In this document: positions 12,375 through 63,221 of the stretch, piece by piece | Position numbering within the stretch: the stretch's first letter is position 1 | How the letters are laid out: the number at the start of each line of letters is the position of its first letter | Source: Forficula auricularia | Taxonomy: Eukaryota; Arthropoda; Insecta; Dermaptera; Forficulidae | Direction of reading: 5' to 3' | DNA length: 64,000 bases | NCBI GenBank assembly: GCA_024734495.1 | Contig: JALMQS010000075.1 | Coordinates: 3,278,935-3,342,934 of the forward strand | The notes under the pieces: generated by a model | Database searches by the model: none | The model's input: only the letters and a program-made list of their open reading frames with translations | What the model was told of the DNA's origin: nothing | Translations under genes and position numbers: made by a program

Positions 12375-12520
12375 ACTGAAAAGTTTTTGTTTTGCCGAGA
12401 GTAGCAGAGTTGTTGATTCACAAAGAGAAACAAAGAGGTTGTCCTCTGCTTGATGCAAATAAACATATACACATATATATCAAGATGATATATCTGTATA
12501 TATATTATTTATTTGTTTGA

Positions 12521-12560
12521 GACTATAGTTTCGAAGACTTGGTCTTCATCATCAGTCTTT
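12521..12560 (-). ncRNA. hammerhead-ribozyme-like motif 1
   Basis: Minus strand: CTGATGA (12555-12549), stem II GAAGAC/GTCTTC with CAA loop, GAAA (12532-12529), then CTATAGTC. Stem III is the self-complementary ACTATAGT. Confidence 0.7.
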
Positions 12561-12670
12561 CTTCAATGAGTTTCATGAGTTCATGAGTTTCTAGCATTCC
12601 AGTGACGAAGGAACACCAAGTTTTCAATATCCATATGATATTGACTCCATGGAAAACATTTATAATTGAA

Positions 12671-12713
12671 GAAAGACTGATGATGAAGACCAAGTCTTCG
12701 AAACTATAGTCTC
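12671..12713 (+). ncRNA. hammerhead-ribozyme-like motif 2
   Basis: CTGATGA (12677-12683), stem II GAAGAC/GTCTTC, GAAA (12700-12703), CTATAGTC. Mirror partner of the motif at 12521-12560. Confidence 0.72.
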
Positions 12714-12921
12714 AAACAAATAAATAATATATATACAGATATATCATCTTGATATATATGTGTATATGTTTATTTGCATCAAGCAGAGGACAACCTCTTT
12801 GTTTCTCTTTGTGAAAAAAACGGTTACAACATATGCAAAAAACAACAACAACAACAACGTAATTAAAAGGAGATTAATAAATCAAACTTATAAATTAATT
12901 AATTAAATGTAATTATTAATT

Positions 12922-13189
12922 GAGGCGACTGTGGGTCAGTGGATAGAGTGTTGGGTCGCTGACTCGGAGATCGCTGGTTCGAGACCGAGTCTCGGCAGAT
13001 AGATATTTGCAGTCGCCTCCTCTTGGAAAGTAATGGCAACCTACCAAGAGTATAATTGCCAAGTGACCTCTCCAAATTAGCCGTTCGGAACCGGCGTTAA
13101 AACGTAGGTACCGTATATCTGTGTAATACAACTAAACACACTCAGCACAGGTATATGTGGAGAGGCGCCGACACCCGTTTCGGGTATGA
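12922..13189 (+). mobile_element. tRNA-headed SINE, family 1, copy 1
   Basis: The head has an A-box-like GTCAGTGGATAGAGTG and a perfect B box GGTTCGAGACC, followed by a unique body with the hairpin ACCCGTTTCGGGT and a GAAGAA tail. The 11-bp repeat AATTATTAATT flanks it. Near-identical to 38837-39121. It is a retroposon rather than a tRNA gene because the body continues about 190 bp and the cloverleaf is incomplete. Confidence 0.85.
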
Positions 13190-13204
13190 AGAATTATTAA
13201 TTAT

Positions 13205-13300
13205 TAATATAATACAGCCGACATTTCGGAGCTTTTTCCCTGAAAAAATCCTGAAGAAGTAAGGAAAAGACCTCCGGAATGTCGGCTTTTTGAAAACAAT
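13205..13300. repeat. decayed PLE-type ribozyme hairpin
   Basis: Contains CTGAAGA at 13251-13257 and GGAATGTCGGC at 13276-13286, with the inverse GCCGACATTTCGGAGC at 13216. The GAAA box has become GGAA on the plus strand and the CTGANGA box is lost on the minus strand. Confidence 0.5.
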
Positions 13301-13335
13301 AAAAAGAGAAAAATATGTTTTCTAATAAATGACAT

Positions 13336-14039
13336 TTTAATTAATAAAATAAAGGGTGTGTAGTTTCACTGTGAAAAGCTAAAAAAAAAACTAAATTAAA
13401 GCTTTATTCGTTTACTTTAACATTTTCAAGTTCTAAAATAACACAAATTAGAAACATACTGTATAACAAAATTTAAAAAAAAGTATTGAGAAAACATTAA
13501 AATCAAAAAAATCAAAAAATCATTCCTTTTTTTTAATATACCTACCTATATAAATAAATAAATAAATCATTATAAATAAACATTCCATTAAAAACAAGGA
13601 ATGTTAAGCAAAATCAAAATTCTATAGATTTCATATTTAATATTTCTGCATTTCAGACCGGAAAGCTCTAAAACCGAAAAATCCAACGTCTAATCAAAGG
13701 GTTCACCAAACTTTATCTTTAACTTTACCTACACTGAAAAAACGATATATTTATAGTTAAGAAATTATATTTGATATGAATAGATGGTGAAATTAATTAT
13801 GGCCAAATCGATCTCTGTTCAATATGAATAAATGATATACGTATTTTAAGTATTCTCATATTTTCGGAGCACCTCTAGATATATTAATAGTTAAGATACC
13901 GCTATTTGAACCAAGCACCAATAAGTAAATTATGAAAATATTGTTATTTGACTAAAATAGTGGAATAGTTAAATTTAATAGTTGGGTAATTAATTAATAT
14001 CATGTTTCACCTAAAACCTACACCACTTTCCCTAAGTAA
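13336..14039 (-). mobile_element. PLE-type unit, family B, copy 1
   Basis: Flanked by AAATGACAT (13327-13335 and 14040-14048; 10 of 12 bases match if extended). The right end is the family B lead (GTTTCACCTAAAACCTACAC then CCACTTTCCCTAAGT), and the left end begins with the family arm AAAGGGTGTGTAGTTTCAC. The interior holds direct repeat copy 2 and no intact ribozyme core. Confidence 0.6.
13733..13995 (+). repeat. direct repeat copy 2 (partner 10131-10395)
   Basis: About 260 bp, very similar to 10131-10395. Here it lies within the family B PLE unit, so it was either carried in or duplicated locally. Confidence 0.75.
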
Positions 14040-14159
14040 AAATGACATCTTGTTGTTGGATATAATTTCTCTTATTTGAATCTGGACTCCTTCATCCAAA
14101 TCCTGTAATTTTAATATTTATCAAGAAAGTATTTAATATTAAGGTAAAAAATCTAAGAT

Positions 14160-14400
14160 TTTAGTAGAAATATTTTTACATTGCATATCAAAGGGTTTCA
14201 TCCCCCAAGGAGTTGAACCCGAGTACTAACACGCTTGCCGGGCTTGTTAGTTCGACCCTCGAGACAAAACACACCCTGACATGCAATATATTTAAGAGAA
14301 GATAATTTGTATCTAAAGTTTTAGCTCCTCTTAAATATATTGCATGTCAGGATGTGTTTATGTCTCGAGGGTCGAACTAACAAGTCCAAACCTATAGACG
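14160..14400. repeat. foldback hairpin with tRNA-like B-box core, copy 1
   Basis: GCATATCAAAGGGTTTCATC and later CCCTGACATGCAATATATTT form an outer stem around GGAGTTGAACCC, the inverse of a B-box-like sequence. A second inverted half follows at 14320-14385 (TTAAATATATTGCATGTCAG). Related copies are at 21860-21960, 22200-22330 and 27935-27990. Confidence 0.55.
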
Positions 14401-14404
14401 TTCC

Positions 14405-14995
14405 TATCAAAATGAGGAAGATATAGAAAATAAGCTGACGTGTTGTGATGTGGCCATCCACTTGACTTTACCATACAACCTGGCCCCTCACTTATATTTA
14501 ATATTTAATAAAATTATTTATAATCATGTAGGGGAAGGGGTTAGTTTTCCCATTTTTAGATTACTGTGAGCCCACTGATTATATATACAAAATTTGGTTG
14601 AGTTTGGTACAAGAGCCTATATTTTCATTTTTTGACACTACACTCCCACATCCCTTAATTTTGGGTCAATATGTACCAAAATCTAATCAGCTCTTAATCT
14701 CAATGGACCAAAACTACATGTGAAATTTGGTTCTGATATTCACACTAGTTTTTGCGCTAGATCGTCCACAAAAATTTGGTATCGCACAGACTAACAGACT
14801 AACTAACAGACATTTTGACAAAACAATTATTATCTGGAAAAATATAATTTTTTCGATGTTCACTTATTAGGGCTTTTTTGTAGACCGAAATAGCATGGTT
14901 TCGTCCAATTTTTTTAATCAAAATTTTTTCAGCTGTTTTTGAGATATTTCGAAAAAAATGCACGATTACAATACTTGACCATACCATGTATGGTA
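14405..14995 (+). repeat. interspersed family R, long copy
   Basis: Begins around TACCATACAACCTGGCCCCT and ends with CTTGACCATACCATGTATGG. The body is shared with 28597-28960 (inverted), 40070-40325 and 54625-54948, including ACAATTATTATCT and GGGCTTTTTTGTAGACCGAA. No ORF is conserved. Possibly a Helitron or other non-autonomous DNA element; unresolved. Confidence 0.6.
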
Positions 14996-15000
14996 AAGTA

Positions 15001-15660: not shown

Positions 15661-15664
15661 CATT

Positions 15665-15845
15665 CCGTTAAAAAAACTATTACAATTGATTGTTGAATAG
15701 GGCAAAGCTCTCGAAACTAGTCTCGCTATAAATAAATTAAAAATTTATAATTCCAGTAGAAGACACACTCTTTTATTGTCTCCTTCAATATATAAAAATT
15801 CTGCTACTCTCATCAAAAAGAAACTTTCAATTTAATTTTTAAATC
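15665..15845 (+). repeat. PLE-type family A end, degenerate
   Basis: Carries AGGGCAAAGCTCTCGAAACT and TAGTCTCGCTATAAATAAA, then AGAAGACACACTCTTTTATT and CTGCTACTCTC, as in 34370-34480. The CTGATGA box has decayed to TTGTTGA, so it is not counted as a ribozyme. Confidence 0.6.
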
Positions 15846-16560: not shown

Positions 16561-16747
16561 ATGTATACCTATACACCAGGTGTACCGGAAAGTCATTACC
16601 GGTTTTTCTAACAGATGTTGCTAGGCTTAAGTATGCAATGTTATGATTTGACACATATGCATTTTATTCTACTGACATCAAGCTTCAAAGCTATACATGT
16701 TATATTTTGCGAAAGTAACACCTTCATAGATTTATACCTCTTTGAAA

Positions 16748-17050
16748 ATGTCAAGTTTCATGCCTGAAAACGTGCATTTGCGGCACGCATTACTTTTCTT
16801 ATTTAATCAAAAGAAAAAAGCCGCTGAAAGTCATCGTTTGCTGCTAGAAACTTACAGTGAGTATGCTTTAACCTTAAAAACATGTGAGGTGTGGTTTCGA
16901 AAATTCAAAAGTGGTGATTTCGATGTGCAAGATAAAGAACGTTCTGGTAAACCAAAAAAGTTTGAAGATGCGAAACTACAGGAGTTATTGGATGAAGACC
17001 CAACCCAAACTCAAAAACAATTGAAAAAACAATACACCGACAACAAATGA
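16748..17050 (+). pseudogene. mariner transposase, N-terminal part
   Basis: From MSSFMPENVHLRHALLFLF the frame gives the N-terminal helix-turn-helix DNA-binding domain of a mariner transposase (100 residues from this Met), including CEVWFRKFKSGDFDVQDKE and the start of the second helix region QTQKQLKKQ. The frame then stops at 17048 because a deletion removed the linker and the first catalytic Asp region. In the family the protein is about 345 residues. Confidence 0.8.
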
Positions 17051-17418
17051 TCAATTTGAACCACGCATTGATCGAAAAACGTCCAGAATGGGCCCGAAGA
17101 CACGGTAAAGTGATTTTACAACACGATAACGCGCCGTCTCATAAAGCAAAACCGGTCAAGGAAGCGTTGAAAGCACTTGGGTGGGACATATTATCGCACC
17201 CGCCGTACTCTCCAGACCTTGCCCCGTCCGACTATCAACTTTTCGCATCGATGGGACACGCGCTTGCAGAGCAGCACTTCGCCAATTTCGAAGAAGTTAG
17301 AAAATGGCTCGATGAATGGTTTTGCTCAAAGGACAAACAGTTTTTTTGGGATGGCATCCATAAATTGCCAGAAAGATGGGCAAGTTGTATAGAATCAGAT
17401 GGCCAATACTTGGAATAA
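17035..17418 (+). pseudogene. mariner transposase, C-terminal part
   Basis: In a different frame from the N-terminal piece, which overlaps it by a few bases. It contains the second catalytic Asp (ILQHDNAPSH) and the third (HPPYSPDLAPSDYQLF, D34D spacing), and ends FWDGIHKLPERWASCIESDG. The first catalytic Asp region is missing, so this copy cannot make active transposase. The usable start is unclear, as the frame is open upstream of the ATG at 17047. Confidence 0.82.
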
Positions 17419-18335: not shown

Positions 18336-18339
18336 TTTT

Positions 18340-18622: not shown

Positions 18623-18973
18623 GAGTAGATATCTTTATTCTTGTAAAAGTTATTAATATTTTAATAATACTTTGATCTATTTTCTACAAAAAAAGAAATT
18701 TCGTTATGGGTTAAGATAGAAAGCTAAAAATTTACTTGGATATTTCTTTCTACATATACTTATGTATAATAACATATCAGAAAAATCAAAAAAATCAAAG
18801 ATGGTCACCGACAAAACGTCGTTGAATTGACATAGAATGATGACCAATATGTATTTTAATGTCAAGATTAAATTGAATTATTATCATTTCCTTCCATAAT
18901 TTAATTTATAATTTGAAAGTTTATATTGGGAAAATAAGGACAAGTTTTTATGTGTGACTTTTTTATTTATCCA

Positions 18974-19012
18974 CCAACGTTTCGTCGACTTTGCCGACTT
19001 CTTCAGGGCTTC
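18974..19012 (-). ncRNA. hammerhead-ribozyme-like motif 3
   Basis: Minus strand: CTGAAGA (19006-19000), stem II GTCGGC/GTCGAC with AAA loop, GAAA (18983-18980), then CGTTGG. Confidence 0.68.
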
Positions 19013-19341
19013 AAATAGTCATGTCACACATTCGTCTAAATTTTCTTATTCTTTTCGTTACCATTGAAGGCCATCAGAAGTTTCGAAGTTGAGATTTCTG
19101 TATGTAGGGATAAAACGGAGAAGAAAAAATGTTCTATTCTAGTTTAAAAAAACAGGGTTGCCTTATTTTGTATATATGTGATTTCTGTTCTGTTTTGTAT
19201 TAATGAAATTGTTATTATAAAGAGAAAAATTGTGTCTTTTTTGTGAATGTGCCAAATATTTTTTGAAAATTGTATTCTGATGGCCTTCAATGGTAACGAA
19301 AAGAATAAGAAAATTTAGACGAATGTGTGACATGACTATTT

Positions 19342-19385
19342 GAAGCCCTGAAGAAGTCGGCAAAGTCGACGAAACGTTGGTGAAT
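19342..19385 (+). ncRNA. hammerhead-ribozyme-like motif 4
   Basis: CTGAAGA (19348-19354), stem II GTCGGC/GTCGAC, GAAA (19371-19374), short ACGT stem III. Mirror partner of motif 3. Confidence 0.68.
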
Positions 19386-19487
19386 AAATAAAAAGTCACA
19401 CATAAAAACTTGTCCTTATTTTCCCAAATATAAACTTTCAAATTATAAATTAAATTGAATGACAAAGTGTTTTAAAATAATTTGATC

Positions 19488-19530
19488 AATAGCCTGAAGA
19501 AGCTACAAAAAATTAGCGAAACGTTACGAT
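19488..19530 (+). ncRNA. hammerhead-ribozyme-like motif 5
   Basis: CTGAAGA (19494-19500), stem II about AGCT/TAGC, GAAA (19518-19521), then CGTTACG. Stem I pairing is weak. It stands alone beside an AT-rich inverted repeat. Confidence 0.5.
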
Positions 19531-22528: not shown

Positions 22529-22906
22529 TTATTCAAAGTATTGGCCATTTGATTCTATACAACTTGCCCATCTTTCTGGCAATTTATGGATGCCATGCCA
22601 AAAAAACTGTTTGTCCTTTGAGCAAAACCATTTATCGAGCCATTTTCTAACTTCTTCGAAATTGGCGAAGTGCTGCTCTGCAAGCGCGTGTCCCATCGAT
22701 GCGAAAAGTTGATAGTCGGACGGGGAAAGGTCTGGAGAGTACGGCGGGTGCGATAATATGTCCCACCCAAGTGCTTTCAACGCTTCCTTGACCGGTTTTG
22801 CTTTATGAGACGACGCGTTATCGTGTTGTAAAATCACTTTACCGTGTCTTCGGGCCCATTCTGGACGTTTTTCGATCAATGCGTGGTTCAAATTGATCAT
22901 TTGTCG
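22529..22906 (-). pseudogene. mariner transposase, C-terminal part (copy 2)
   Basis: Minus-strand frame with ILQHDNASSH (second Asp) and HPPYSPDLSPSDYQLF (third Asp). Differs from copy 1 by a few substitutions, such as Ala to Ser at NASSH. The first catalytic region is absent and the N-terminal part is in another frame. Confidence 0.8.
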
Positions 22907-23197
22907 GTGTATTGTTTTTTCAATTGTTTTTGAGTTTGTGTTGGGTCTTCATCCAATAACTCCTGTAGTTTCGTATCTTCAAACTTTTTTGGTCTATCCG
23001 AACGTTCTTTATCTTGCACATCGAAATCACCACTTTTGAATTTTAGAAACCACACCTCACATGTTTTTAAGGTTAAAGCATGCTCACCGTAAGTTTCTAC
23101 CAGCAAACGATGACTTTCAGCGGCTTTTTCTTTTGATTAAATAAGAAAAGTAATGCGTGCCGCAAATGCACGTTTTCAGGCATGAAACTTGACATTT
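22897..23197 (-). pseudogene. mariner transposase, N-terminal part (copy 2)
   Basis: Encodes the N-terminal DNA-binding region (CEVWFLKFKSGDFDVQDKE). The initiation region at about 23197 is followed by a small indel near 23125 that breaks the frame. The junction QLKKQYTDK at the 3' end corresponds to the same deletion endpoint as copy 1. Confidence 0.75.
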
Positions 23198-23584: not shown

Positions 23585-23675
23585 TTTTATATATTTCGGG
23601 CGGCTAACCTATTTTCAATTACTTTCTGTTGCTCCTGAAGATGGGTTAGCCACCCGAAATATATATAGAGACGAT
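23585..23675 (+). repeat. PLE-type ribozyme hairpin, family B-like
   Basis: ATATATTTCGGGCGGCTAAC at 23590 is roughly mirrored by GTTAGCCACCCGAAATATAT at 23646. The left half has lost its CTGANGA box; the right half is intact. Confidence 0.6.
23629..23672 (+). ncRNA. hammerhead-ribozyme-like motif 6
   Basis: CTGAAGA (23635-23641), stem II GGGT/ACCC, GAAA (23656-23659), then a TATA-type stem III. Stem I is at least CTC/GAG. Confidence 0.6.
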
Positions 23676-26466: not shown

Positions 26467-26544
26467 TATATAAAAAAACTAAGTGGATATTGATGAGGCA
26501 GTCCAAAAAAGAAGAAGATAATTTACACTATCTTTTTATTCATA

Positions 26545-26590
26545 AAACCGACGTTTCGGAGGCTATTCCCTCCTTCTTCAGTGGTTTTGA
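26545..26590 (-). ncRNA. hammerhead-ribozyme-like motif 7
   Basis: Minus strand: CTGAAGA (26581-26575), GAAA (26557-26554), then CGTCGGTTTT. Stem I AAAACC/GGTTTT is supported by the mirror copy; here the 5' strand reads AAAACCA. Confidence 0.68.
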
Positions 26591-26749
26591 AAAGTCAGTG
26601 AAGGAAACCCAATGCGGCATTCCCTCTGTCTCCTCTTTCAGTGGCAGTAACAATAATATCTTGTATTTCATTCTCAGCAGAATTATAATGTAATAATTAT
26701 TGAGTGAGACAGAGGGGAATGCCGCATTGGATTTCCTTCACTGACTTTT

Positions 26750-26793
26750 CAAAACCCTGAAGAAGGGGGAATAGCCTCCGAAACGTCGGTTTT
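26750..26793 (+). ncRNA. hammerhead-ribozyme-like motif 8
   Basis: AAAACC (26751-26756) directly precedes CTGAAGA (26757-26763). Stem II is G-rich/CCTCC, GAAA is at 26780-26783, then CGTC and GGTTTT, which pairs fully with AAAACC as stem I. One of the best cores in the window. Confidence 0.78.
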
Positions 26794-26964
26794 ATGAATA
26801 AAAAGATAGTGTAAATTATCTTCTTCTTTTTTTGGACTGCCTCATCAATATCCACTTAATTCACTTATCAGTCCGTCTCCAAAAATTACTCCAATCTTAA
26901 TAAAAAAAACTTTTTCTTTTTTAAGTAATGAAGCTCTGTTGAAGGTTTTATTTTTGCGATTAAT

Positions 26965-27235
26965 TTTATTAAGAGTTGAAATTTTATTAAAATCACACAT
27001 AATAATTATGCTAATTATAATTATTTTTTGAACACGAATAAATAATACCTAGAATAAAAGTACGATGTACTCGTAATTGAGACCGATCGAAACGTCGTAC
27101 TTTTATTGTAGGTATTATTTATTCGTGTTCAAAAAATAATTATAATTAGGATAATTATTATGTGTGATTTTAATAAAATTTCAACTCTTAATAAAATTAA
27201 TCGCAAAAATAAAACCTTCAACAGAGCTTCATTAC
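26965..27235. repeat. foldback element, GATCGAAACGTCG family, copy 2
   Basis: Arms of about 120 bp share AATTATAATTATTTTTTGAA and AATAAATAATACCTA. The centre reads TTGAGACCGATCGAAACGTC. Tail sequence AAAACCTTCAACAG and TTCATTA is shared with copy 1. Confidence 0.75.
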
Positions 27236-27294
27236 TAATCAATATTAATTTTATTTTACTCATAGATTAAACCCATAGATTTATCCTATATTTA

Positions 27295-30381: not shown

Positions 30382-30393
30382 ATACGAGGTGTA

Positions 30394-30593
30394 AATTAAT
30401 AAAGTAAAGTAGTGTAGTTTCACAATGAATGAAATAAAACTCAAAGAGGTTTAAACAGACTCAATATATTTCGGGTTATTAGTCCATCTTCAAGAGTTTA
30501 AAGATTAAAAAACTACACTACACATTACTTTATTAATTAATATCATGTTTCATCCAAAACCCACACCACTTTCCCTAACTAAAATATGAGGTG
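30394..30593 (-). mobile_element. PLE-type unit, family B, copy 2
   Basis: Flanked by ATACGAGGTGTA (30382-30393) and ATATGAGGTGTA (30594-30605), 11 of 12 identical. The family B lead is at the right end. The central ribozyme motif has TTGAAGA instead of CTGAAGA and is probably inactive. Confidence 0.78.
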
Positions 30594-31515: not shown

Positions 31516-31729
31516 GATCTATAATAGCTACTAAATGACCGGACTGTGCTTAGAAACGTTGAAGGCTATATTGCAAGTGAAATGCATTTTCTCCAATACT
31601 TGTGAGGAATTTTGTAATAGCATATCACAAAATGAGTTTATTTATTTATTTTAATTTTATAAAATGTTAATTTTGTGTTCTAAAAATTCAAATTCTTTAG
31701 CAATATTGGAATTCAAACTTAAACTATAC
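31516..31729. other. no recognised feature
   Basis: AT-rich spacer. Confidence 0.4.
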
Positions 31730-31860
31730 ATTGAAGGAGACAATAAAAGAGTGTGTCTTCTGCTGGAATTATAAATTTTATTTATTTATAACGAGACTAT
31801 AGTTTCGAAGGCTTTGCCCTCTTCATCAGTCTATTACAATGTATTCACAGGAATTAATTT
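31730..31860 (-). repeat. PLE-type family A end, single (non-inverted) copy
   Basis: GAAGGAGACAATAAAAGAGT then GTCTTCTGCTGGAATTATAA and the ribozyme motif, as in 34124-34230, but without the mirrored half. Confidence 0.7.
31793..31836 (-). ncRNA. hammerhead-ribozyme-like motif 9
   Basis: Minus strand: CTGATGA (31829-31823), stem II GAGGGC/GCCTTC with one G-U pair, GAAA (31806-31803), CTATAGTC. Present singly. Confidence 0.7.
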
Positions 31861-32051
31861 ATGATTTTTTTGCATAATAAAATTTATTGCATTCATATAT
31901 AATGTATTATATGTACAAAGTTTAAACATAAAATTATTGATTTTACTTATGGAAAGTGGTGTAGGTTTTAGGTGAAACATGATGTTAGTTAATAGAGTAA
32001 AGGGTGTGTAGTTTCACAGTGAATGAAATAAAACTCAAAGAGGTTTATACA

Positions 32052-32094
32052 AACTCAATATATTTCGGATTATTAGTCCATCATCAGGAGTTTA
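32052..32094 (-). ncRNA. hammerhead-ribozyme-like motif 10
   Basis: Minus strand: AAACTC, CTGATGA (32087-32081), stem II GGA/TCC, GAAA (32066-32063), TATATT, GAGTTT. Stem I AAACTC/GAGTTT is perfect. Confidence 0.73.
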
Positions 32095-32127
32095 CAGGTT
32101 AAAAACTGAAACTCAGTTTTTAACCTG

Positions 32128-32172
32128 TAAACTCCTGATGATGGACTAATAATCCGAAATATGTGAGTTTGT
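32128..32172 (+). ncRNA. hammerhead-ribozyme-like motif 11
   Basis: AAACTC, CTGATGA (32135-32141), stem II GGA/TCC, GAAA (32156-32159), TATGT, GAGTTT. Partner of motif 10; stem III has one change. Confidence 0.7.
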
Positions 32173-32291
32173 ATAAACCTCTTTGAGTTTTATTTCATTC
32201 ACTGTGAAACTTCACACCCTTACTCTATTAACTAATAAAATTATTGAATAATTCACAAAGCATTATTATCTGTATGTTCATCATAAGTACT

Positions 32292-34096: not shown

Positions 34097-34185
34097 TGGA
34101 ATCGTATGAAATTAGATATTTAATTGAAGGAGACAATAAAGAGTGTATCTTCTGCTGGAATTATAAATTTTATTTATTTATAACG

Positions 34186-34228
34186 AGACTATAGTTTCGA
34201 GGGCTTTGCCCTCTTCATCAGTCTATTA
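34186..34228 (-). ncRNA. hammerhead-ribozyme-like motif 12
   Basis: Minus strand: CTGATGA (34221-34215), stem II GAGGGC/GCCCTC with AAA loop, GAAA (34198-34195), CTATAGTC. Confidence 0.73.
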
Positions 34229-34349
34229 CAATGTATTCACAGGAATTAATTTATGAATGAAAGTTTTACATTTTTCATTCAATTTATAACCTTAACACAT
34301 GAAAAATGTAAAACTTTCATTCATAAATTAATTCCTGTGAATACATTGT

Positions 34350-34393
34350 AATAGACTGATGAAGAGGGCAAAGCCCTCGAAACTATAGTCTCG
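34350..34393 (+). ncRNA. hammerhead-ribozyme-like motif 13
   Basis: CTGATGA (34356-34362), one unpaired A, stem II GAGGGC (34364-34369)/GCCCTC (34373-34378), GAAA (34379-34382), CTATAGTC ending 34390, the predicted cleavage point. Confidence 0.75.
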
Positions 34394-34504
34394 TTATAAA
34401 TAAATAAAATTTATAATTCCAGCAGAAGACACACTCTTTATTGTCTCCTTCAATATATAAAAATTCTGCTACTCTCGGCAAAAACTTTCAATTTAGATAT
34501 TTAA

Positions 34505-34920
34505 AATTAAAAACACTTTTATTTTTATTTTTTGACTTCCTCAGCGGCGGTGAATAGAATTATTTAACTTAAAAATATTTAATAATCCCATTTAATATCC
34601 TCTGATTATAGAAAACAGTCAAATATAGTTATCTTCCTTGCCTGTCTGCAAAGTAAACAACCTAGAGTACAGAGCACATCCATTTTCCATGTTATCTGTA
34701 GATATGGTTGCCTATGCTGTAGGCGCCAACAAAAAATAACGTCATAGATCATATATGTATATGAAATAAATAGTTTTTAGAGCCACAGAGTCCTGGGGGC
34801 GAACCCCTGGCCACCATGATGGTTCTATATATTAAATATTTTTCAAAAACTTATGTAATTTTGTAATAGCTATATATTTTCTTTTATTATCCAAGAGTTA
34901 TTAGTCACAAAAATAATAAA
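34505..34920. other. no recognised feature
   Basis: Mixed composition, no repeat partner seen, no ORF of note. GGGGGCGAACCCCTGG at 34796 is a small hairpin. Confidence 0.4.
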
Positions 34921-35025
34921 TAAAATTGAAAGTAATGGAAGGCAGCCCAGAGGTAGTGAGGAAAGAAAAAATTAACACATATAAAATAAGGTGTAATTTA
35001 TTGGAATCCTTCCTCCTTTCCTTTC

Positions 35026-35071
35026 AAACCGACGTTTCGGAGGATTTTGCCCTCCTTCTTCAGGGTTTCAA
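35026..35071 (-). ncRNA. hammerhead-ribozyme-like motif 14
   Basis: Minus strand: AAACC, CTGAAGA (35063-35057), stem II with AGGAGGG/CCTCC-type pairing, GAAA (35038-35035), CGTC, GGTTT. Stem I AAACC/GGTTT perfect. Confidence 0.73.
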
Positions 35072-35262
35072 AGGGTCAATGAATGAAACAAATAAAATGT
35101 TTCCTTCTTCTCTCCACAGTAGTGTTCAAAAACTTTCTTCATTTTTAACAAAAGGCATAGAAAGACAAAAAAAAATTTTTTCCCTTCTTTTCTTAATTAG
35201 TTTTTGAACACTACTGTGGAGAGAGGAAGGAAACATTTTATTTGTTTCATTCATTGACCCTT

Positions 35263-35308
35263 TGAAACCCTGAAGAAGGAGGGAAAAATCCTTCGAAACG
35301 TCGGTTTG
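35263..35308 (+). ncRNA. hammerhead-ribozyme-like motif 15
   Basis: AAACC, CTGAAGA (35270-35276), stem II AGGA/TCCT, GAAA (35295-35298), CGTC, GGTTT. Partner of motif 14. Confidence 0.74.
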
Positions 35309-35484
35309 AAAGGAAAGGAGGAAGGATTCCAATAAATTACACCTTATTTTATATGTGTTAATTTTTTCTTTCCTCACTACCTCTCGGCTGCCTTCCATTA
35401 CTTTCAATTAAAATTTCTACCAGTCCCCGTCTCTCTCCAGAGAAAATTTCGTTGCAAAAAAATAAATAAAATAATTCCAAAAAT

Positions 35485-44755: not shown

Positions 44756-45091
44756 GTGTTCCGCGGAACTCTGGGAGTTCAAAACTCAGAAGAGTTGGAA
44801 GGTTCTTTCGTAAATAATTATAAATTACACAAAGAGAAACAAAGAGGGGGTGGGGGTTGGTTTTTCTTTTTTTTTCCTTTCTTTTATCTAAAATTCTTTG
44901 TTTTGACAGAAAACATTCTAAGTAAATTGCTATTTGATAATTCAATTTTGCTGTTCAAATTGTTAATTTTAGCTGGCTCCCAGCTAAGTAAAGATCGAAA
45001 ATTTTCAATATCCATACAGTATTGACCCCATGAAAAATAATATATTATAATTTAAACAGACTGATGATGACAGATATGTAATTTCGATATA

Positions 45092-46182
45092 CAGGGTGGT
45101 GACTTGGCAGACGCTGCATAGCGATTACAATGTTAATTTTTGAATGTGCATTTATTTGCTCCCCTAATTATTTTAGAGTGAAAGTTCTTATAGGTTTTTT
45201 GTAGAGAAAAAATACTGAATCCGAACATATTTTTGTTTTCAAATTTTGAAATTTCAGAACCGTAATAATCAACATTATAAATAATTGTATTTTTACAAAA
45301 ATCACTGAGGCCATCGAATTATTAAAACAAACAAGGCATTTTCATTTGTTGTTTCTTATTTGACGTTTAATAGTGATTGATGTCTTTAGTGATTATTTTA
45401 GAGAATAATTAGAATACAAAAAACTGAGCAGAATTAAAATTCTAAAAGATAATTACATCAGATTTTGTCTAATTCATAATTTAAAGGTCCAAAAAACGAT
45501 TTTAAAAATGTAGATATTTATTTAAAAAATTTAAATTCAAAACTTTTATTGTTGTCGATTGTTTAAGTTTTATTGTTTTTACTAACTAGTCTCAAAATGG
45601 ATTCATATTGGTCAACAAATCTATGATTATAAAACAAAACTTAACTTTTTAAAGTCAGTTCTTTTATTACAATGTATTCATTACAAGAAAAAGTTGAAAT
45701 AATTAAGTACTTTTATGCTGGAAATAGTGCTCGGCAAGTGAGTTCCTTGTTTAGCGTTAAATATCCGAATCGGCCAATTCCAGCTGGTACAACGGTTGAC
45801 AGAATAGTTCAAAAATTTGAAACTACAGGCACTGTACTAAATAATTGTAAGTGTAATAAAGACGCACAGAATTTACGTGAAAACGAGGAAAATGAGAACA
45901 CCTTCAATGTTTTGGCTGCAGTAACGGAAGAAAATGCCTTGTTTGTTTTAATAATTCCATGGCCTCAGTGATTTTTGTAAAAATACAATTATTTATAATG
46001 TTGATTATTACGGTTCTGAAATTTCAAAATTTGAAAACAAAAATATGTTCGGATTCAGTATTTTTTTCTCTACAAAAAACCTATAAGAACTTTAACTCTA
46101 AAATAATTAGGGGAGCAAATAAATGCACATTCAAAAATTAACATTGTAATCGCTATGCTGCGTCGGCCAAGTCACCACCCTG
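45092..46182 (+). mobile_element. long-TIR Tc1/mariner-superfamily-like element with HTH ORF
   Basis: Begins CAGGGTGGTGACTTGGC and ends with the inverse CCACCCTG at 46182; TA lies on both sides (45090-45091 and 46183-46184). The terminal inverted repeats are about 240 bp with few differences. It sits within a PLE sequence: joining ...TTTCGATA and TATGTGTATATG restores the sequence found at 63153. Confidence 0.85.
45672..45971 (+). CDS. helix-turn-helix protein, DUF4817-like (transposase N-terminus)
   Basis: Ninety-nine residues starting MYSLQEKVEIIKYFYAGNSA. The pattern of EKVEIIK, then RQVSSLFSVKYPNRPIP and VDRIVQKFETTGTV matches the HTH domain (DUF4817 type) found at the start of Tc1/mariner-related transposases in insects. 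Family members continue into a DDE domain, which is absent: the frame runs into the right inverted repeat. The region after residue 60 (NLRENEENENTFNVLAAVTE) looks like a joined later part of such a protein. Probably an internal deletion derivative; it might bind its own TIRs but cannot catalyse. Confidence 0.6.
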   Translation: MYSLQEKVEIIKYFYAGNSARQVSSLFSVKYPNRPIPAGTTVDRIVQKFETTGTVLNNCKCNKDAQNLRENEENENTFNVLAAVTEENALFVLIIPWPQ

Positions 46183-46925
46183 TATATGTGTATATGTTTA
46201 TTTGCATCAAGAAGAGGACAACCTCTTTGTTTCTTTTTGTGAATCAACAACTCTGCTACTCTCGGAAAAACAAACTTTTCAATTAAATTATAAATTATTT
46301 CATTAAATATACTGGTCGACAAAAATTTGTCAATGGATTCCAGTAGTTTTATAGGCTGATTATCATGCACTTTCCCGATTTTTTACAACAGGTAAGTGTT
46401 TTGAGATATTATCGGTTAAAACGACGAAAAATGCCATTTTGACCTATTTTCGATCCCATTTAGGGATGCAAACGATACATCGATGTTTACCATCGATGTT
46501 TTTCTATACGATGTTTTTTACATCGAAGTTCCGACTTTTTTCTAAGGCTGAAGCAACAATAACGCAACAAAGAAACCGTTTGACAGGGAAACGGCTTTCA
46601 AAACTATTACTTTTAAATTCGGTTACTAAATAAATTGCTTTGGATTTGGAAAAAGTCTATTATGAGAGTCACTTGATTATTGTATAACCTTCTAATAAAA
46701 AATTAACTTCTTAAATGGTAGGTATTTTATTTTATACAAAAAAAAACTATTGATGATACGATACACCGATGTTTTCTAGGCGATGTATCGATGTTTTTTT
46801 ATATATCGATGTATGCAAATTGAAAGTTTTTTGCCTAGAGTAGCAGAATTTTTATAAATTGAACGAGACAATAAAAAGAGTAGTGCCTTGTGCTGGAATT
46901 ATAAATTTTTTATTTATTTATAACG

Positions 46926-46969
46926 ATACTATAGTTTCGAGAGTCTTTCCCCTCTTCATCAGTCTATTA
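46926..46969 (-). ncRNA. hammerhead-ribozyme-like motif 16
   Basis: Minus strand: CTGATGA (46962-46956), stem II only about GAG/CTC because of changes, GAAA (46938-46935), CTATAGTA. Confidence 0.55.
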
Positions 46970-47061
46970 CAATTGATTCACAGGAATTAATGTATGAATG
47001 GTAAGTCCTTACCATTCATACATTAATTCCTGTTGAACCAACACAAATTTAAGACCATTGT

Positions 47062-47105
47062 AATAGACTGATGAAGAGGGCAAAGCTATCGAAACTATAG
47101 TCTCG
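47062..47105 (+). ncRNA. hammerhead-ribozyme-like motif 17
   Basis: CTGATGA (47068-47074), stem II GAGGGC/GCTATC with mismatches, GAAA (47091-47094), CTATAGTC. Confidence 0.6.
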
Positions 47106-47189
47106 TTATAAATAAAATTTATAATTCCAGCAGAAGACACACTCTTTTATTGTCTCCTTCTATCGATGTTTGAATCCCTAGTCCCTTAA

Positions 47190-47626: not shown

Positions 47627-47845
47627 TTTTACTTAGGGAAAGTGGTGTAGGTTTTAGGTGAAACATGATATTAATTAATAAAGTAAAGGGAGTGTAGTTT
47701 TACAATGAATGAAATAAAACTCAAAGAGGTTTATACAAACTCAATATATTTCGGATTATTAGTCCATCATCAGGAGTTTACAGATTAAAAACTCTTTGAA
47801 TTTTATTTAATTCATTGTGAAACTACACTCCCTTTACTTTATTAA
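47627..47845 (+). mobile_element. PLE-type unit, family B, copy 4
   Basis: Perfect 12-bp duplication TTACGGATACAA (47615-47626 and 47846-47857) within the Tc1-like right arm. Lead AAAGTGGTGTAGGTTTTAGG at the left; arms about 50 bp; a single ribozyme motif, the mirror motif having been lost. Confidence 0.88.
47739..47780 (-). ncRNA. hammerhead-ribozyme-like motif 18
   Basis: Minus strand: AAACTC, CTGATGA (47773-47767), stem II GGA/TCC, GAAA (47752-47749), TATATT, GAGTTT. Confidence 0.72.
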
Positions 47846-47887
47846 TTACGGATACAAGTTTTTGTTTAATTTTTGTCGAGCAGTGTT

Positions 47888-51346: not shown

Positions 51347-53900
51347 ATGTCTGAAATGTTGGGTGAAATCTTGATGAAATATTATACACGAAAATTGCGA
51401 GCTGAAAAAGAAATGGCAATTTATAAAATGAAAAGTGAACTATTCTGTAAGGAATTGCAGGTGACAATTAGTTTAGTTTTTTTTTAAGGATTTAGGTGTC
51501 GGTTCTAGGTGAAACATTATAAATAACTTATGAGGAGAATTTTCTAGGTTAAGTTTCACAAAAAGGAAATATATTAAAACAAATGCATGTTTTTTTTTGA
51601 GTTTGATTAGCTCGATATATATTTCGGGTTACTAGCCCATCTTCAGGAGTTCAAATAAAAACTGAATACAAATTTGTAAAAACGTTTAACAAGTAAAAAT
51701 TTTTTTTGAAAGATGAGTATATTCAGAAAGTTTCATAAACAAAATTTTGAGAGAGAAGAGTACATTCAGAAAGTTACATCAACAAACAGAAGTTAAAGTA
51801 CGTTCAGAAATTACTTTCAATCTTTTTTCTTAAAAATTAATAAATTGTTATTATTTAAATTAGAAACAGAAACAGAAATAAAAACAAAACAAAAATAAAA
51901 ACAAAGAACAAATTACAAACACAAATTATGTAATCAAAGTTAAGAGCCGATTTTTAATTTATTAATTTTAGCCAAATTAGAATCAATGATTATATCTCTG
52001 TCAAAGTCCAATTGATTATTGAGAATACTGGATTTATTCAGAAGGGCCAATTTAATCTCCGTTGATTCTAGAAGAAGAAGTCTGGGACCACTTCTTTCAA
52101 AATGAATTGGGGTAGGATTAGAAGTGGAGGCAGTATGATTTTCCGAATGTAAATGAATTTGTAAATTAATTCATTTACATTCGGAAAATCATACTGCCTC
52201 CACTTCTAATCCTACCCCAATTCATTTTGAAAGAAGTGGTCCCAGACTTCTTCTTCTAGAATCAACGGAGATTAAATTGGCCCTTCTGAATAAATCCAGT
52301 ATTCTCAATAATCAATTGGACTTTGACAGAGATATAATCATTGATTCTAATTTGGCTAAAATTAATAAATTAAAAATCGGCTCTTAACTTTGATTACATA
52401 ATTTGTGTTTGTAATTTGTTCTTTGTTTTTATTTTTGTTTTGTTTTTATTTCTGTTTCTGTTTCTAATTTAAATAATAACAATTTATTAATTTTTAAGAA
52501 AAAAGATTGAAAGTAATTTCTGAACGTACTTTAACTTCTGTTTGTTGATGTAACTTTTCTGAATGTACTCTACTCTCAAAATTTTGTTTATGAAACTTTT
52601 CTGAATATACTCATCTCAAAAAAAATGTTTACTTGTTAAACGTTTTTACAAATTTGTATTCAGTTTTTATTTAAACTCCTGAAGATGGGCTAGTAACCCG
52701 AAATATATATCGAGCTAATCAAACTCAAAAAACATGCATTTGTTTTAATATATTTCCTTTTTGTGAAACTTAACCTAGAAAATTCTCCTCATAAGTTAGT
52801 TTAGTTTGTAATTAATTTAATAATTATTAAATAATTATTTATTTATTTATTTGTAGCGTACAAAAGAGAGCCTGAAAAAAGAAAAAGAAGAGAAAAATAA
52901 TTTAGTGAAAGAAATAGAAAATATGATAAATAAAGTAAATGAAAAATTACACAAAAAGGTAGGATTTATTTATTTTTTTATTTTAATGAATAATTAATTT
53001 AATTTTTAATTATACATTTTATTTAATTAGATTATCGATCAGACGAAAATTGAAACGAATTCAATTAAAGATGAAATTAAAACATTCAATGAAAATGTAC
53101 AGTATTTATTTATTTATTTATTTATCTATAAATCAATTCAATTATTGTATAATCTATTTTCAATTTATTTATTTTTTTAGAATAATCATAAAATCAATTC
53201 TCTGGAAATTAAAATTGACTCACTAAACCAGGAAATGGTAAATTTAAATAGAAAGGTAAAAGCAATTATTTATTTATTTAGAGAAATATTAAGGGGGAAT
53301 TTATACTAGGGTCGAAGTCGTAATTTGAAACACAATTTAAGTTTATTTATTTATTTAATTTCAGATGCACGAATTAAATAGTAAAATAAATTCTAATACG
53401 GAAGAAGTTCCATTGGATAACGATGGAACTGAAGATATTTGGGAAGCTGCAAGAAAAGGATCTCTAAAGGGGGTCAAATTCTATTTGGCTCAGGATCCTT
53501 CCAATCTAAATAAAAAAGATGTACAAAATGAATTCACCCCCCTGCATTATGCATCCGAAAATGGCCATTTAGAAATTGTTAAATTTTTATTATCAAAATC
53601 AGCAATAGTAGATCCAAAGGATAAATATAATCGTACTCCTCTTATGTGGGCATGTCAGAAGGGGCCATGTCCCTATAGTCAATTTGCTTTTGGACAAAGG
53701 GGCTGATATAAATTGCCAGGATTTAAATAGAGATACACCCCTTCATCGTGCAATTTGGGGAGATCATTTGGATGTTGTGAAATTACTAATTCAAAGGGGG
53801 GCGGATAAAACAATAAAAAATAAGTGGCGGAAGGACCCCACTTGATTATGCTATTACTATAAACAGCCTCTCAATTGTAAATTATTTCCATTCTCTTTAA
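51347..53900 (+). CDS. coiled-coil and ankyrin-repeat protein, five exons
   Basis: Exons: 51347-51460, 52857-52958, 53031-53096, 53181-53255 and 53365-53900. Every internal border is GT..AG, and the first four coding exons are 114, 102, 66 and 75 bp, all in phase 0, so the frame is kept through the splices. Exons 1-4 give about 119 residues rich in Lys, Glu and Asn (ESLKKEKEEKNNLVKEIENM, KINSLEIKIDSLNQEM), predicted coiled coil. Exon 5 holds about four ankyrin repeats, e.g. TPLHYASENGHLEIVKFLL and TPLHRAIWGDHLDVVKLLI. Two frameshifts interrupt it: one extra base near 53662 (after MWACQKG) and about two missing bases near 53823; beyond each, ankyrin sequence continues (TPLDYAITINSLSIVNYF). They may be assembly errors or real inactivation. 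Such proteins usually act as protein-binding scaffolds; the partner is unknown. Intron 1 hosts a PLE palindrome. Confidence 0.72.
51611..51653 (-). ncRNA. hammerhead-ribozyme-like motif 19
   Basis: Minus strand: CTC, CTGAAGA (51646-51640), stem II GGG/CCC, GAAA (51625-51622), TATATATC, GAG. Confidence 0.68.
52168..52385 (+). pseudogene. PLE protein C-terminal fragment (right arm)
   Basis: Frame beginning IHLHSENHTASTSNPTPIHF and containing LLLLESTEIKLALLNKSSIL then stop at about 52385. The pattern (HS...LLESTEI) matches the end of PLE ORFs after the GIY-YIG domain, as at 62700-62821. The left arm 51942-52159 holds the inverted copy. Confidence 0.65.
52672..52716 (+). ncRNA. hammerhead-ribozyme-like motif 20
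   Basis: CTC, CTGAAGA (52679-52685), stem II GGG/CCC, GAAA (52700-52703), TATATATC, GAG. It lies in the sense strand of the host intron. Confidence 0.7.
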
Positions 53901-59800: not shown

Positions 59801-59804
59801 ATTT

Positions 59805-60144: not shown

Positions 60145-60638
60145 AGATATATATATGTAAAACATCCTCATATTAACCGCGTAAAACTGAAAACCCTGGG
60201 CCTATCAAGTTGGTCCCACTGCTATCCATGTCAAATATAAATACTGATTAAAAGACGTTAAAACTAGTATAAAATATTAAAGTTGTAAAACTTGTTCCAA
60301 AATATAAAAAGATTGAATACCAGAAAACAAACTATAAAAACCAATTTATAATGTAGTCAATTCGGGTTGAATCATAAATGACTATAAGCCAATGTTTTTA
60401 GGAATACATTGGCTTATAGTCATTTATGATTCAACCCGAATTAACTACATTATAAATTGGTTTTTATAGTTTGTTTTCTGGTATTCAATCTTTTTATATT
60501 TTAAAACAAGTTTTACAACTTTAATATTTTATACTAGTTTTAACCTCTTTTAATCAGTTTTTATATTTGACATGGATAGCAGTGGGACCAACTTGATAGG
60601 CTCAAAGTTTTCAGTTTTACGGTTAATATGAGATATTT

Positions 60639-60650
<12 letters not shown>
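60145..60650. repeat. near-perfect palindrome, about 0.5 kb
   Basis: Arms of about 240 bp (TCAAGTTGGTCCCACTGCTA and inverse; TGACTATAAGCCAATGTTTT near the centre) with a loop of a few bases at about 60402. No ribozyme core and no ORF. A Helitron-like 5' end abuts the right arm. Confidence 0.85.
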
Positions 60651-60674
<24 letters not shown>

Positions 60675-60712
60675 TTGTGCTCGTTTAATAAGAGTAGATA
60701 AGAGTAGATAGA
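60640..60712 (-). repeat. TA microsatellite and Helitron-like 5' end fragment
   Basis: TATATA run, then ACAATTTGTGCTCGTTTAAT and AAGAGTAGAT, the inverse of the 20579 start. Confidence 0.6.
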
Positions 60713-61151
60713 TAGATATAATTAAGTTTTTCATCTCATGTTTAGAAAAATCAAACTTAAAATTGAATTGAATATTGAATTTTCATTTCAATATAAGTAT
60801 TATAGCAATTTTTTGTGTTATATAAAGTATTTCTTGAGACATCCGAATACGTATATTATCAAATTTCATATATTTAATGATATTTCACTAATAGTCGAGT
60901 GGGTAAAGTACATGCCTCATAATTAATCAAGCCCCACTCTCGGCAATGCTATTTTAGTCTGATCCCTACATATTTGAAAATAAACTAAAATATATAGTAT
61001 CGCTAATGGTTAAATCCGATAAGCCAAAAAAAAAAACATTTCACCTCGACCTTAGCGCAAGCCCTTTGTGGACAGTGTGCAAAACAAAAACAAAAAACAA
61101 AATGGCGGCCGAGTCGCCTATCTATTTTTCTTTTATCTGAGATTAATATAA
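60713..61151. other. no firm feature; weak tRNA-like patch
   Basis: 60895-60955 (TAGTCGAGTGGGTAAAGTAC then CCCCACTCTCGGC) has an A-box-like word without a proper B box. The rest is anonymous. Confidence 0.35.
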
Positions 61152-61507
61152 ACATCAATATATTCACAAAAGATTGAAAAAGAAAACCTTAAGATAGTTC
61201 TCTTATATTATGGACAAATTTCGGAAAAAATAAAACATAAAATGAAAAAATTAGGATTCAACACAGTATTCAAAACACCAATTACTCTAGGGAAAGAATT
61301 AGGTTCAAATAAAAAGGATAAATTACCCAATATAGAAAAAGAAGGGGTTTTTAATTTGAAATGGAAAGATTGTGACGCAATCTACGTAGGAAAAACAGAG
61401 GGGAATCTGAAAATTCGATTAAGCGAACATTTTAGAGATTTTAGAAATCTTGAGCAAGATGCGAGGTAGGTTTCACAAAAAAGAAATAAAACAAAATTGA
61501 GTTTTGA

Positions 61508-61548
61508 ATTCGATATATTTCGGGAGTGAGCCCATCATCAGAAGTCAA
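61508..61548 (-). ncRNA. hammerhead-ribozyme-like motif 21
   Basis: Minus strand: CTGATGA (61541-61535), stem II GGG/CCC, GAAA (61521-61518), TATATC. Stem I has one mismatch. Confidence 0.62.
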
Positions 61549-62500
61549 AGTAAACTGATTATACAATGGAAAAATAATTTTACAAATAACAATACTTTTT
61601 GAAATGTATGTGGTGAGGCGAAAGTAGGGGTAAGAGGAGAAGTTGTTCCAAGAATTAATATTTTCGACAAATGGAAAAATTGAGTTTTGAACCAGCTGAA
61701 GGGAAGCTATACCTTCTATTATAATAAAGAATGGGAACGTACGTGACAGGGTACAACTGGAAAAGTGCCTGAGAGGGTACAATTACCTTAATATATTCAA
61801 TGTGCGAACAATAGAAGGAATGTTTAGTTAATTTATTATAATATATAATCAATTATTGTATTTTTAAGCACTTCTAATTGTTTATTTATAATATTTGAAT
61901 TATTTGATAGGGCTATTTCAACCTCCGTAGATTCTAAGAGATCCAATTTAAGGCCTTTTCTTTCGAAATGAATGGGGATAGGGTTATTATTAGAGGTGGA
62001 ATGATTGAATTCATGTAAATGAATTGCGAAGGCTGAGTCGAATCATTCCGCCTCTAATAATAACCTATCATCAATCATTTCGAAAGAAAAGGCCTTAAAT
62101 TGGATCTCTTAGAATCTACGGAAATTAAAATAGCCCTCTCAAATAATTCAAATATTTTAAATAATCAATTAGAAGTGCATACAAATACAATTATTGATTA
62201 TATATTATAATAAATTAACTAAACATTCTTTCTATTGTTCGCACATTGAATATATTAAGGTAATTGTACCCTCTCAGGCACTTTTCCAGTTGTACCCTGT
62301 CACGCACGTTCCCATTCTTTATTATTAAAATAGTAGGTAGAGCTTCCCTTCAGTTGGTTCAAAACTCAATTTTTCAATTTGTTGAAAATATTAATTCTTA
62401 GAACAACTTCTCCTCTTACCCCTACTTTCCCCTCACCACATACATTTAAAAAAATATTGTTATTTGTAAAATTATTTTTCCATTGTATAATCAGTTTTCT

Positions 62501-62544
62501 TTGACTCCTGATGATGAATCATCACCCCGAAATATATCAAATTC
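62501..62544 (+). ncRNA. hammerhead-ribozyme-like motif 22
   Basis: CTGATGA (62508-62514), degraded stem II (GAATC...CACCCC), GAAA (62529-62532), TATATC. Weaker than its mirror, motif 21. Confidence 0.5.
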
Positions 62545-63075
62545 AAAACGCAATTTTGTGAAACCTACCTCGCATCTTGCTCAAGTTTTATTATTATATT
62601 AAAATGTTTCACCTAGAACCAACACCTAACTACTTAAAAGTTATTTTAGAAATCAGTAAAAAGAGAACTCATTAGCGGAACATTTAAATTCAAACAATCA
62701 CTCTTTTCCGGAAAGCACAGGAATTAGATTAATAAAAGGACAAAGAAACCCAAAATTAATTAGCGCAATTGAATCGTTAGAAATTTTGAAATCATTCAAT
62801 AAAAATTCATTCTTTGTTTAAACGGAAAAATAGAATTATCTAATAGCAATTTACTTAGAATGTTTGCTAACAAAACATGCAATTTTAGATAAAAGGAGTG
62901 GAAAAAGGAACCCCCCCCCCTTCCATTGTCAGTCTGTTCTTTGTCACAAAGAAAAGGGATGCATGTGTTTAAATATGAATGTGAACCCAAAGATGATTTT
63001 AGTTTAGAAAAGATCAAAAAAATTTCAATTATCATACGGTATTAGGCCTCCATGGAAAACAATATTTATAATTAA

Positions 63076-63119
63076 AAAAGACTGATGATGAAGACCAAGT
63101 CTTCGAAACTATAGTCTCA
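63076..63119 (+). ncRNA. hammerhead-ribozyme-like motif 23
   Basis: CTGATGA (63082-63088), stem II GAAGAC/GTCTTC with CAA loop, GAAA (63105-63108), CTATAGTC. It lies downstream of the GIY-YIG ORF stop in the same strand, which links the motif to a PLE. Confidence 0.78.
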
Positions 63120-63221
63120 AACAAATAAATAATATATATATACAGATATATCATTTCGATATATATGTGTGTATGTTTATTTGTATCAAGCAGAGGCCAA
63201 CCTCTTTGTTTCTCTTTGTGT

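Follow-up and report, generated by a model that had tools for sequence, protein, structure and literature searches.

Hammerhead palindromes of likely Penelope-like origin in Forficula auricularia, with joints at the predicted cleavage base

Penelope-like elements (PLEs) carry minimal hammerhead ribozymes with a type I core and almost no stem III, which are located in the pseudo-long terminal repeats (pLTRs) and for which action as a dimer has been proposed (passages of PMC7761336). The same review of 2020 called their role in vivo a mystery, and the PLE biochemistry of 2024, in the parts drawn on here, left the role of the hammerhead unresolved (PMC11167929). Here we analyze a stretch of 64,000 nucleotides from the genome of the earwig Forficula auricularia (C663:3278935-3342934, genome size 1.06 Gb), referred to as the window over its whole length. 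It contains 23 hammerhead-like motifs, most of them within palindromes made of inverted pLTRs, and the analysis was extended to palindromes elsewhere in the genome whose arms begin at the predicted cleavage base of the ribozyme.

Likeness to the minimal PLE hammerheads (Cervera and de la Pena 2014; Lunse, Weinberg and Breaker 2017) was judged via their description in PMC7761336. The type I core, the almost absent stem III and the pLTR location are shared, whereas the motifs found here lie, against that description, mostly in palindromes without an open reading frame (ORF), and cut-site joints elsewhere in the genome record a 5' end at the cleavage base. For Penelope of the rotifer Adineta vaga, passages of PMC3846280 describe head-to-head inverted pLTRs with a one-sided tail of ~31 bp and target site duplications (TSDs) of 8-10 bp. 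Inverted pLTRs, one-sided tails, short TSDs and palindromes at the joints are common to both systems. According to these passages, however, the pLTR pairs of A. vaga are few and mostly flank ORFs or captured DNA, whereas the palindromes described here are numerous, free and ~170-1300 bp long, with mapped hammerheads and cut-site joints.

The purified protein of the Anolis PLE (PAc) cleaves and extends both target strands, and the RNA has two adjacent start sites, between which the tail lies (passages of PMC11167929). The two outer ends of the units described here recall the start sites bounding this tail, with the hammerhead upstream of both. As far as these passages go, the start sites lie inside the ORF in PAc and upstream of the ORF in our family A and, unlike in PAc, insertions here terminate at the cleavage site. 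Animal retrozymes, described in PMC7229834 as direct tandem repeats of 150-450 bp with RNA circles, are likewise small non-autonomous repeats with type I hammerheads; unlike these, the units found here consist of two copies in inverted orientation and have the tails and TSDs of PLEs. A retrozyme-like micro-array was observed at L011:5131-5547, where four head-to-tail copies of 105 bp with one family B hammerhead each adjoin a palindrome.

No prior report of cut-site joints was found in the literature searched by titles, abstract openings and passages. Within this literature, it is new that palindromes lacking an ORF form a numerous class and that joints lie precisely at the cleavage base; the minimal dimer-type PLE hammerheads, the inverted pLTRs and the tails are already known (PMC7761336, PMC3846280).

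Joints at the predicted cleavage base

The palindromic units are assigned to families A to G (Table 1). In one family B palindrome outside the window (L016:2182-2311), both arms begin at base 0, the predicted cleavage base, and this was spotted before any genome counts were made. For the counts, the exact string of a blunt head-to-head joint at base 0 was used, which covers symmetric joints only and gives lower bounds; L016 itself is missed through one substitution. The family B joint occurred 213 times in the genome, with no occurrence when one base more or one base fewer was taken in both arms. The family A joint occurred 27 times, with none at one base upstream, the neighbour-base controls covering both sides for B and the upstream side for A. 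The joint of family D (context ACGTC|GG) was found twice. The reversed-pattern controls of the joint strings gave zero throughout for all three families.

Forty-two joints were retrieved (20 of the 213 of family B, 20 of the 27 of family A and both of family D), and 37 of them showed the full anatomy. Exactly one arm carried the tail in 37 of the 40 A and B joints and in both D joints, and two tails were seen in none of the 42. For family A, 19 of 20 joints had one arm ending at 145-155, in the tail, and the other at 113 or before, whereas one tail arm was present in 18 of 20 family B joints and none in the remaining two (L037 and L051). TSDs of at least 11 bp flanked 15 of 20 A joints and 11 of 20 B joints, compared to 4 of 1560 mismatched-locus flank pairs. 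The two D joints are flanked by in-place direct repeats of 12 and 13 bp, so that 28 of the 42 retrieved joints have a TSD of at least 11 bp. The centre of the A and B joints is a perfect palindrome of 22-24 bp with no loop between the arms.

Joints of this class require a template whose 5' end coincided with the cleavage base, and such an end is most simply explained by ribozyme cleavage. The joints suggest, at the level of genomic sequence, that PLE hammerheads do cleave their template in vivo, and they have probably preserved, like fossils, the activity of the ribozyme within cells. Joints of palindromes at a single defined base would then provide a genomic assay for in vivo cleavage that requires no living material. 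The joints further suggest that PLE cDNA is primed from both sides of the break, which would explain the puzzle of inverted pLTRs with a one-sided tail.

Parent element, tails and outer ends

A 7 kb tandem PLE (L032, G000:C563:410200-417200) contains three pLTRs, 2909 bp apart and 99.8% alike, with the family A hammerhead once per monomer. It has two intact ORFs of 827 amino acids, and RVT_1 and GIY-YIG domains were found in the one scanned. The identity of the monomers and the intact ORFs are a sign of recent amplification. Genome-wide, 3423 GIY-YIG candidates were obtained, of which 150 were scored, with several frames above 820 codons among those listed. Family A thus shows the ORF with reverse transcriptase and GIY-YIG endonuclease and the tandem pLTRs that define a PLE, and in the other families the PLE hallmarks are the one-sided tail, the ~12-bp target duplication and the inverted pLTRs. 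A PLE origin of the hammerhead palindromes is supported by these features and appears likely, the link to an ORF being made for family A only.

In the window, both arms of unit A1 (99% and 95% identical to L032) are L032-type pLTRs placed head to head, one of them tailed, with unequal inner ends; this unit has no clear target duplication, only a low-complexity repeat of 8-9 bp. A remnant of the PLE itself lies near the right end of the window. Its first part matches GIY-YIG below the Pfam cut-off and is interrupted by unit G, behind which positions 62663-63220 are collinear with the ORF end and pLTR of L032 at 75% identity. Unit G, whose limits were fixed after inspection of the sequence, lies with its 12-bp TSD inside this endonuclease remnant and therefore moved there as one unit. 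In another locus (L031), a 5'-truncated PLE carries an inverted pLTR and tail at its 5' side.

Exact TSDs of 12-13 bp were present in seven of ten tested window units, and at least 11 bp in eight of ten if an out-of-place repeat of unit B2 is counted; among 5000 random placements, 1.6% reached 12 bp and 3.5% reached 11 bp. For B2 the in-place direct repeat is 9 bp (TATCGATGT), the out-of-place one 11 bp. The TSDs are locus-specific and mostly 11-15 bp long. Between arm and duplication, on one side only, all ten window units have a tail, which measures ~40-50 nt and ~20 nt in unit C. The two arms therefore finish on different sites, one at the pLTR end and one at the tail end. One tail is common to families A and B and a second one to E, F and G, and the tails of D1 and D2 are alike by eye. 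The tails of E1, E2, F and G read MFHL(E/K)PTP and may, judging from this translation, represent the start of an ORF.

Mapping of pLTR copies in the window, in 20 sampled 10-kb stretches and in eight short loci (L003-L010), which partly overlap, showed 3' ends clustering at these two sites. With ranges that were chosen after the values were known, 10 and 12 of 33 rows ended at the pLTR end and the tail end, respectively, for family A, 12 and 18 of 36 for B, 2 and 3 of 6 for D1, 5 and 6 of 11 for E and 2 and 6 of 18 for F. The inner ends are variable among pLTR-like copies. Five family B arms (L009:1295, L011:5545, L014:9063, L016:1259 and L022:2075) have their inner end at -9 to -12, at the 3' foot of stem II, whereas the tail arms that face them do not. 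These stops may mark stalling of the reverse transcriptase at the folded stem II.

Probable copying from both sides of a break and alternative origins

We consider it probable that the PLE-derived hammerhead palindromes result from two-sided copying at a staggered break followed by joining, and that the cut-site joints stem from ribozyme-cut RNA. The endonuclease would cut the target with a stagger of ~12 bp, and from each 3' end of the break cDNA would be primed at one or the other of two internal start sites of the RNA. Synthesis would halt by chance, at folded RNA, or by run-off at the 5' end made by the ribozyme, and the two cDNA ends would then be joined head to head at their 5' ends. Two-sided priming and joining of this kind would account for two arms that reach from separate start sites to the same RNA 5' end, with one copy of the ~12-bp TSD next to each.

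Several observations weigh against this interpretation. The model does not account for why each arm keeps so strictly to a single start site. Fragments ending elsewhere make up 11 of 33 rows in family A and 10 of 18 in family F, and the references for B, D1, E and F stop at about the tail end, only that of A extending well beyond it, so that the second site as a true end rests on family A and on the TSDs. Among the retrieved joints, five of 42 are without full anatomy: L037 and L051 are tail-less, L038 and L057 have one short arm (only 24 nt in L057) and L065 is ambiguous. The non-tail arm of L066 ends slightly early, at 87, and 14 of the 40 A and B joints have no TSD of 11 bp. Family D contributes two joints only, and its string is also compatible with a shift by one base in both arms (AAAACC/GGTTTT). 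The Anolis study, in the passages used, had no RNA reads at the cleavage site, did not find ribozyme cleavage without protein and observed insertion in vitro that was independent of the ribozyme (PMC11167929). Finally, the earlier note on this DNA had taken the whole palindrome population to be RNA-active; RNA activity is supported indirectly by the cut-site joints that families A, B and D have elsewhere in the genome, but no arm ending at its cut site was found in the window. Nearly all window arms run through the ribozyme and were therefore made from RNA that was uncut there. Uncut RNA is the commoner template, consistent with the Anolis assays.

Alternatively, a single cut-site palindrome per family could have been copied as a unit, the 213 and 27 joints then representing few events. 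Counts of exact matches do not separate events from copies, and all arms of B joints follow a common consensus, with no variant present in at least three arms that would split the joints into lineages. We nevertheless regard founder copying as unlikely, since it would need to have occurred at the predicted cut in three families, and since in most joints the non-tail arm ends at the start site beside a new TSD, which read-through copying would not give. Moreover, arm identity within units (0.881) equals that between units (0.881; 18 of 20 B units, L037 and L038 excluded), the tail variants vary among the joints and other B palindromes show many different inner ends.

For rotifer Penelope, passages of PMC3846280 propose that one cDNA or antisense RNA snaps back and primes itself. 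Snap-back would account for palindromes at the joints of inverted pLTRs and for a tail-less arm, expected if this arm is copied from the other. It would however leave the tail arm of every unit the deeper one, whereas the B units vary: the inner end is deeper in the tail-less arm of L009, L012, L016 (1259), L017 and L023 and in the tail arm of L014, L020, L022 and the window unit at 47000, with L011 and L024 left unclassed in this comparison. The cut-site joints, with their perfect palindromic centre, have no loop, and the flanks are direct duplications rather than inverted copies. Snap-back thus appears quite unlikely.

We consider it very unlikely that a transcription start or a different nuclease, and not the hammerhead, produced the 5' ends at the cut site, even though any RNA with a fixed 5' end would yield an identical joint by run-off. 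The base in question is the one dictated by the ribozyme fold and was noted in one palindrome ahead of the genome counts, and families A and B (C|TC) and D (C|GG) agree in the position within the fold and not in sequence. Ordinary foldback or miniature inverted-repeat DNA transposons with an acquired hammerhead, suggested by the long inverted arms and the target duplications, are hardly credible, since the outer ends of the ten window units, of 37 of the 40 A and B joints and of both D joints are asymmetric, with a tail on one side only instead of two symmetric terminal ends, since the arms have many different internal starting points and since a PLE is collinear with family A.

In L032 the cut precedes the beginning of the ORF by 196 nt and the two sites at which copying would start by ~104 and ~148 nt. 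Cleavage in the downstream repeat would therefore leave only a stub as template, and on one RNA this cleavage and full-length copying are mutually exclusive. Tentatively, the hammerhead may be regarded as a built-in brake, by which paired RNAs cut each other, the stubs meet and a dead palindrome of 170-250 bp is planted; we put this forward as a possibility to which we give less than even weight. The hammerhead, 64-150 nt upstream of both start sites, would pair via its palindromic stem III, and the templates left in the particle would yield only two stubs while both broken target ends are primed. Should this hold, palindrome-rich genomes would have archived, at the resolution of single bases, where the ribozyme cleaved in vivo.

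Motifs, density and units of the window

The plain motif pattern, CTGANGAN(8-30)GAAA, gave 24 matches in the window compared to a mean of 3.15 and a maximum of 9 in 100 shuffles. The match at 53429 is not a hammerhead; it is located within an ankyrin-repeat ORF and was dropped, which leaves the 23 motifs that the earlier note had listed. This ORF (53359-53706) is the sole host-gene-like coding stretch of the ten ORFs scanned. A strict descriptor (stem II of at least 3 bp, stem III A...U, H17, stem I of at least 2 bp) retained 18 window motifs, and 21 without the stem I requirement; on 1000 dinucleotide shuffles it found no motif in 968 and one in 32. The descriptor does not recover the motifs at 47068 and 62508, both of which are decayed copies.

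All 18 strict motifs have one additional base (A or T) separating A9 from stem II, and in all of them stem III is self-complementary, of the types ACTATAGT, ACGT and ATATAT. These stem III types are as the earlier note had given them, as are stem I AAAACC/GGTTTT and the stem II pairs GAGGGC/GCCCTC, GAAGAC/GTCTTC and GGGT/ACCC; GTCGGC/GTCGAC is also present, with one G-U pair. Stem I of family A has 2 bp only. Covariation was assessed on 100 motifs among the genome matches listed, from the first three contigs. Stem II followed one extra base in 55 of these (A in 28, T in 24, G in 2 and C in 1) and in none did it pair solely without an extra base; six were ambiguous or had stem II after two bases, and 39 lacked a stem II of 3 bp. 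Pairs 2-4 of stem II each occur as five or six pair types when distinct stems among the motifs listed are compared, which bears out the covariation proposed from the window. The hammerhead core and the stem II covariation are real, and with the CUGANGA...GAAA core, the covarying stem II, a UH cleavage site and stem I the motifs show the features of type I hammerheads.

The covariance-model search for which the earlier note had called went the other way: the Rfam hammerhead models matched none of the motifs, neither at gathering nor up to E 10, likely because of the extra base and the absence of a closed stem III. MicroRNA-like Rfam matches below gathering are mostly hairpins of the palindromes. 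The palindromic stem III predicts, from its sequence, a ribozyme acting as a dimer of two RNAs. Calculated duplex energies for stem III are -7.2 (ACUAUAGU), -3.2 (AUAUAUAU) and -1.7 (ACGU) kcal/mol, and for single monomers of families A and B the calculated energies favour an inactive fold. The transcript of the full unit B1 folds into one long hairpin (-254 kcal/mol, z -36.6), within which, according to this model, the ribozyme would be concealed.

Throughout the genome the plain pattern matched 245,297 times and the reversed pattern 34,341 times. With the strict descriptor, the window has 18 motifs per 64 kb and a genome sample of 200 kb (20 stretches of 10 kb from two contigs, 16 from C663 and 4 from C3) has 9, making the window about six times richer. 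The density that had appeared striking for this window is thus a genome-wide property, although one that is higher in the window than in the sample. The same window and sample contain 66 full palindromes, of which 64 have sufficient flank and 15 of these bear motifs. With PLE geometry required, a TSD of 11 bp or longer was found in 6 of the 15 motif-bearing palindromes and in 7 of the 49 motif-less ones, compared to 23 of 4032 mismatched flank pairs. Some motif-less palindromes do belong to the PLE class, and the population is only partly explained: the proposal that all of it is PLE-derived is supported for family A and, through PLE hallmarks, for the other families, but for only some of the motif-less palindromes. 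On viral contigs, one pattern had two matches (L001 and L002), which are no motifs by the descriptor and probably due to chance; two further patterns gave no match there.

By self-comparison of the window, 19 of the 23 motifs lie within palindromes, in agreement with the reported concentration in inverted units; those at 19494, 23635, 31795 and 63082 lie outside. Nine units have two motifs, all nine in the outward (-/+) order, the motifs at 47068 and 62508 having been entered into this tally by hand. The tenth unit, E2, has a single motif, and its right arm begins ~10 nt 3' of the cut site.

Table 1. Hammerhead-bearing units, single pLTRs and PLE remnants of the window
Feature	Position	Strand	Hammerhead motifs	TSD	Tail and remarks
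Unit A1	12374..12815	.	12521-12555 (-), 12677-12711 (+)		Family A pLTR pair, head-to-head; tail left, 12374-12416
Single family B pLTR, tailed	15684..15834	+	decayed
Unit C	18879..19448	.	18976-19006 (-), 19348-19378 (+)	ATTAAATTGAAT 18867-18878, 19449-19460	Short tail (~20 nt) left
Lone hammerhead-like motif	19494..19525	+			No stem I found
Lone hammerhead	23635..23667	+			Related to family F
Unit D1	26477..26900	.	26550-26581 (-), 26757-26787 (+)	only low-complexity 9-bp direct repeat	Tail right
Unit E3	30390..30585	.	decayed		Older family E palindrome
Single family B pLTR	31725..31864	-	31795-31829
Unit E1	31941..32234	.	32057-32087 (-), 32135-32159 (+)	ATAAAATTATTGA 31928-31940, 32235-32247	Tail left, MFHLKPTP
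Unit B1	34124..34492	.	34187-34221 (-), 34356-34390 (+)	TTAGATATTTAA 34112-34123, 34493-34504	Tail right
Unit D2	34927..35460	.	35031-35063 (-), 35270-35302 (+)	AATAAATAAAAT 34915-34926, 35461-35472	Tail right (~50 nt)
Unit B2	46817..47163	.	46927-46962 (-), 47068-47094 (+, decayed)		Older family B palindrome; tail left
Unit E2	47627..47845	.	47743-47773 (-)	TTACGGATACAA 47615-47626, 47846-47857
Unit F	51480..52795	.	51614-51646 (-), 52679-52711 (+)	TTAGTTTAGTTT 51468-51479, 52796-52807	Arms ~640 bp
PLE ORF remnant (GIY-YIG), first part	61152..61449	+			85% DNA identity to the PLE in L032
Unit G	61450..62642	.	61512-61541 (-), 62508-62532 (+, decayed)	ATTTTAGAAATC 61438-61449, 62643-62654	Tail right, MFHLEPTP
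PLE remnant, second part, and 3' pLTR	62643..63220	+	63082-63116

Some further features of the window were observed beside these units. A palindrome without a hammerhead (26901-27258) abuts the tail end of D1 and is either a nested insertion or part of a composite unit. At 45087-46187, inverted arms that are 97-98% alike flank an ORF with an HTH domain (DUF4817, 45645-45971), and this is probably a DNA transposon and not a PLE palindrome. The stretches 16730-17418 and 22529-22948 are fragments of Mos1/mariner-type transposases.

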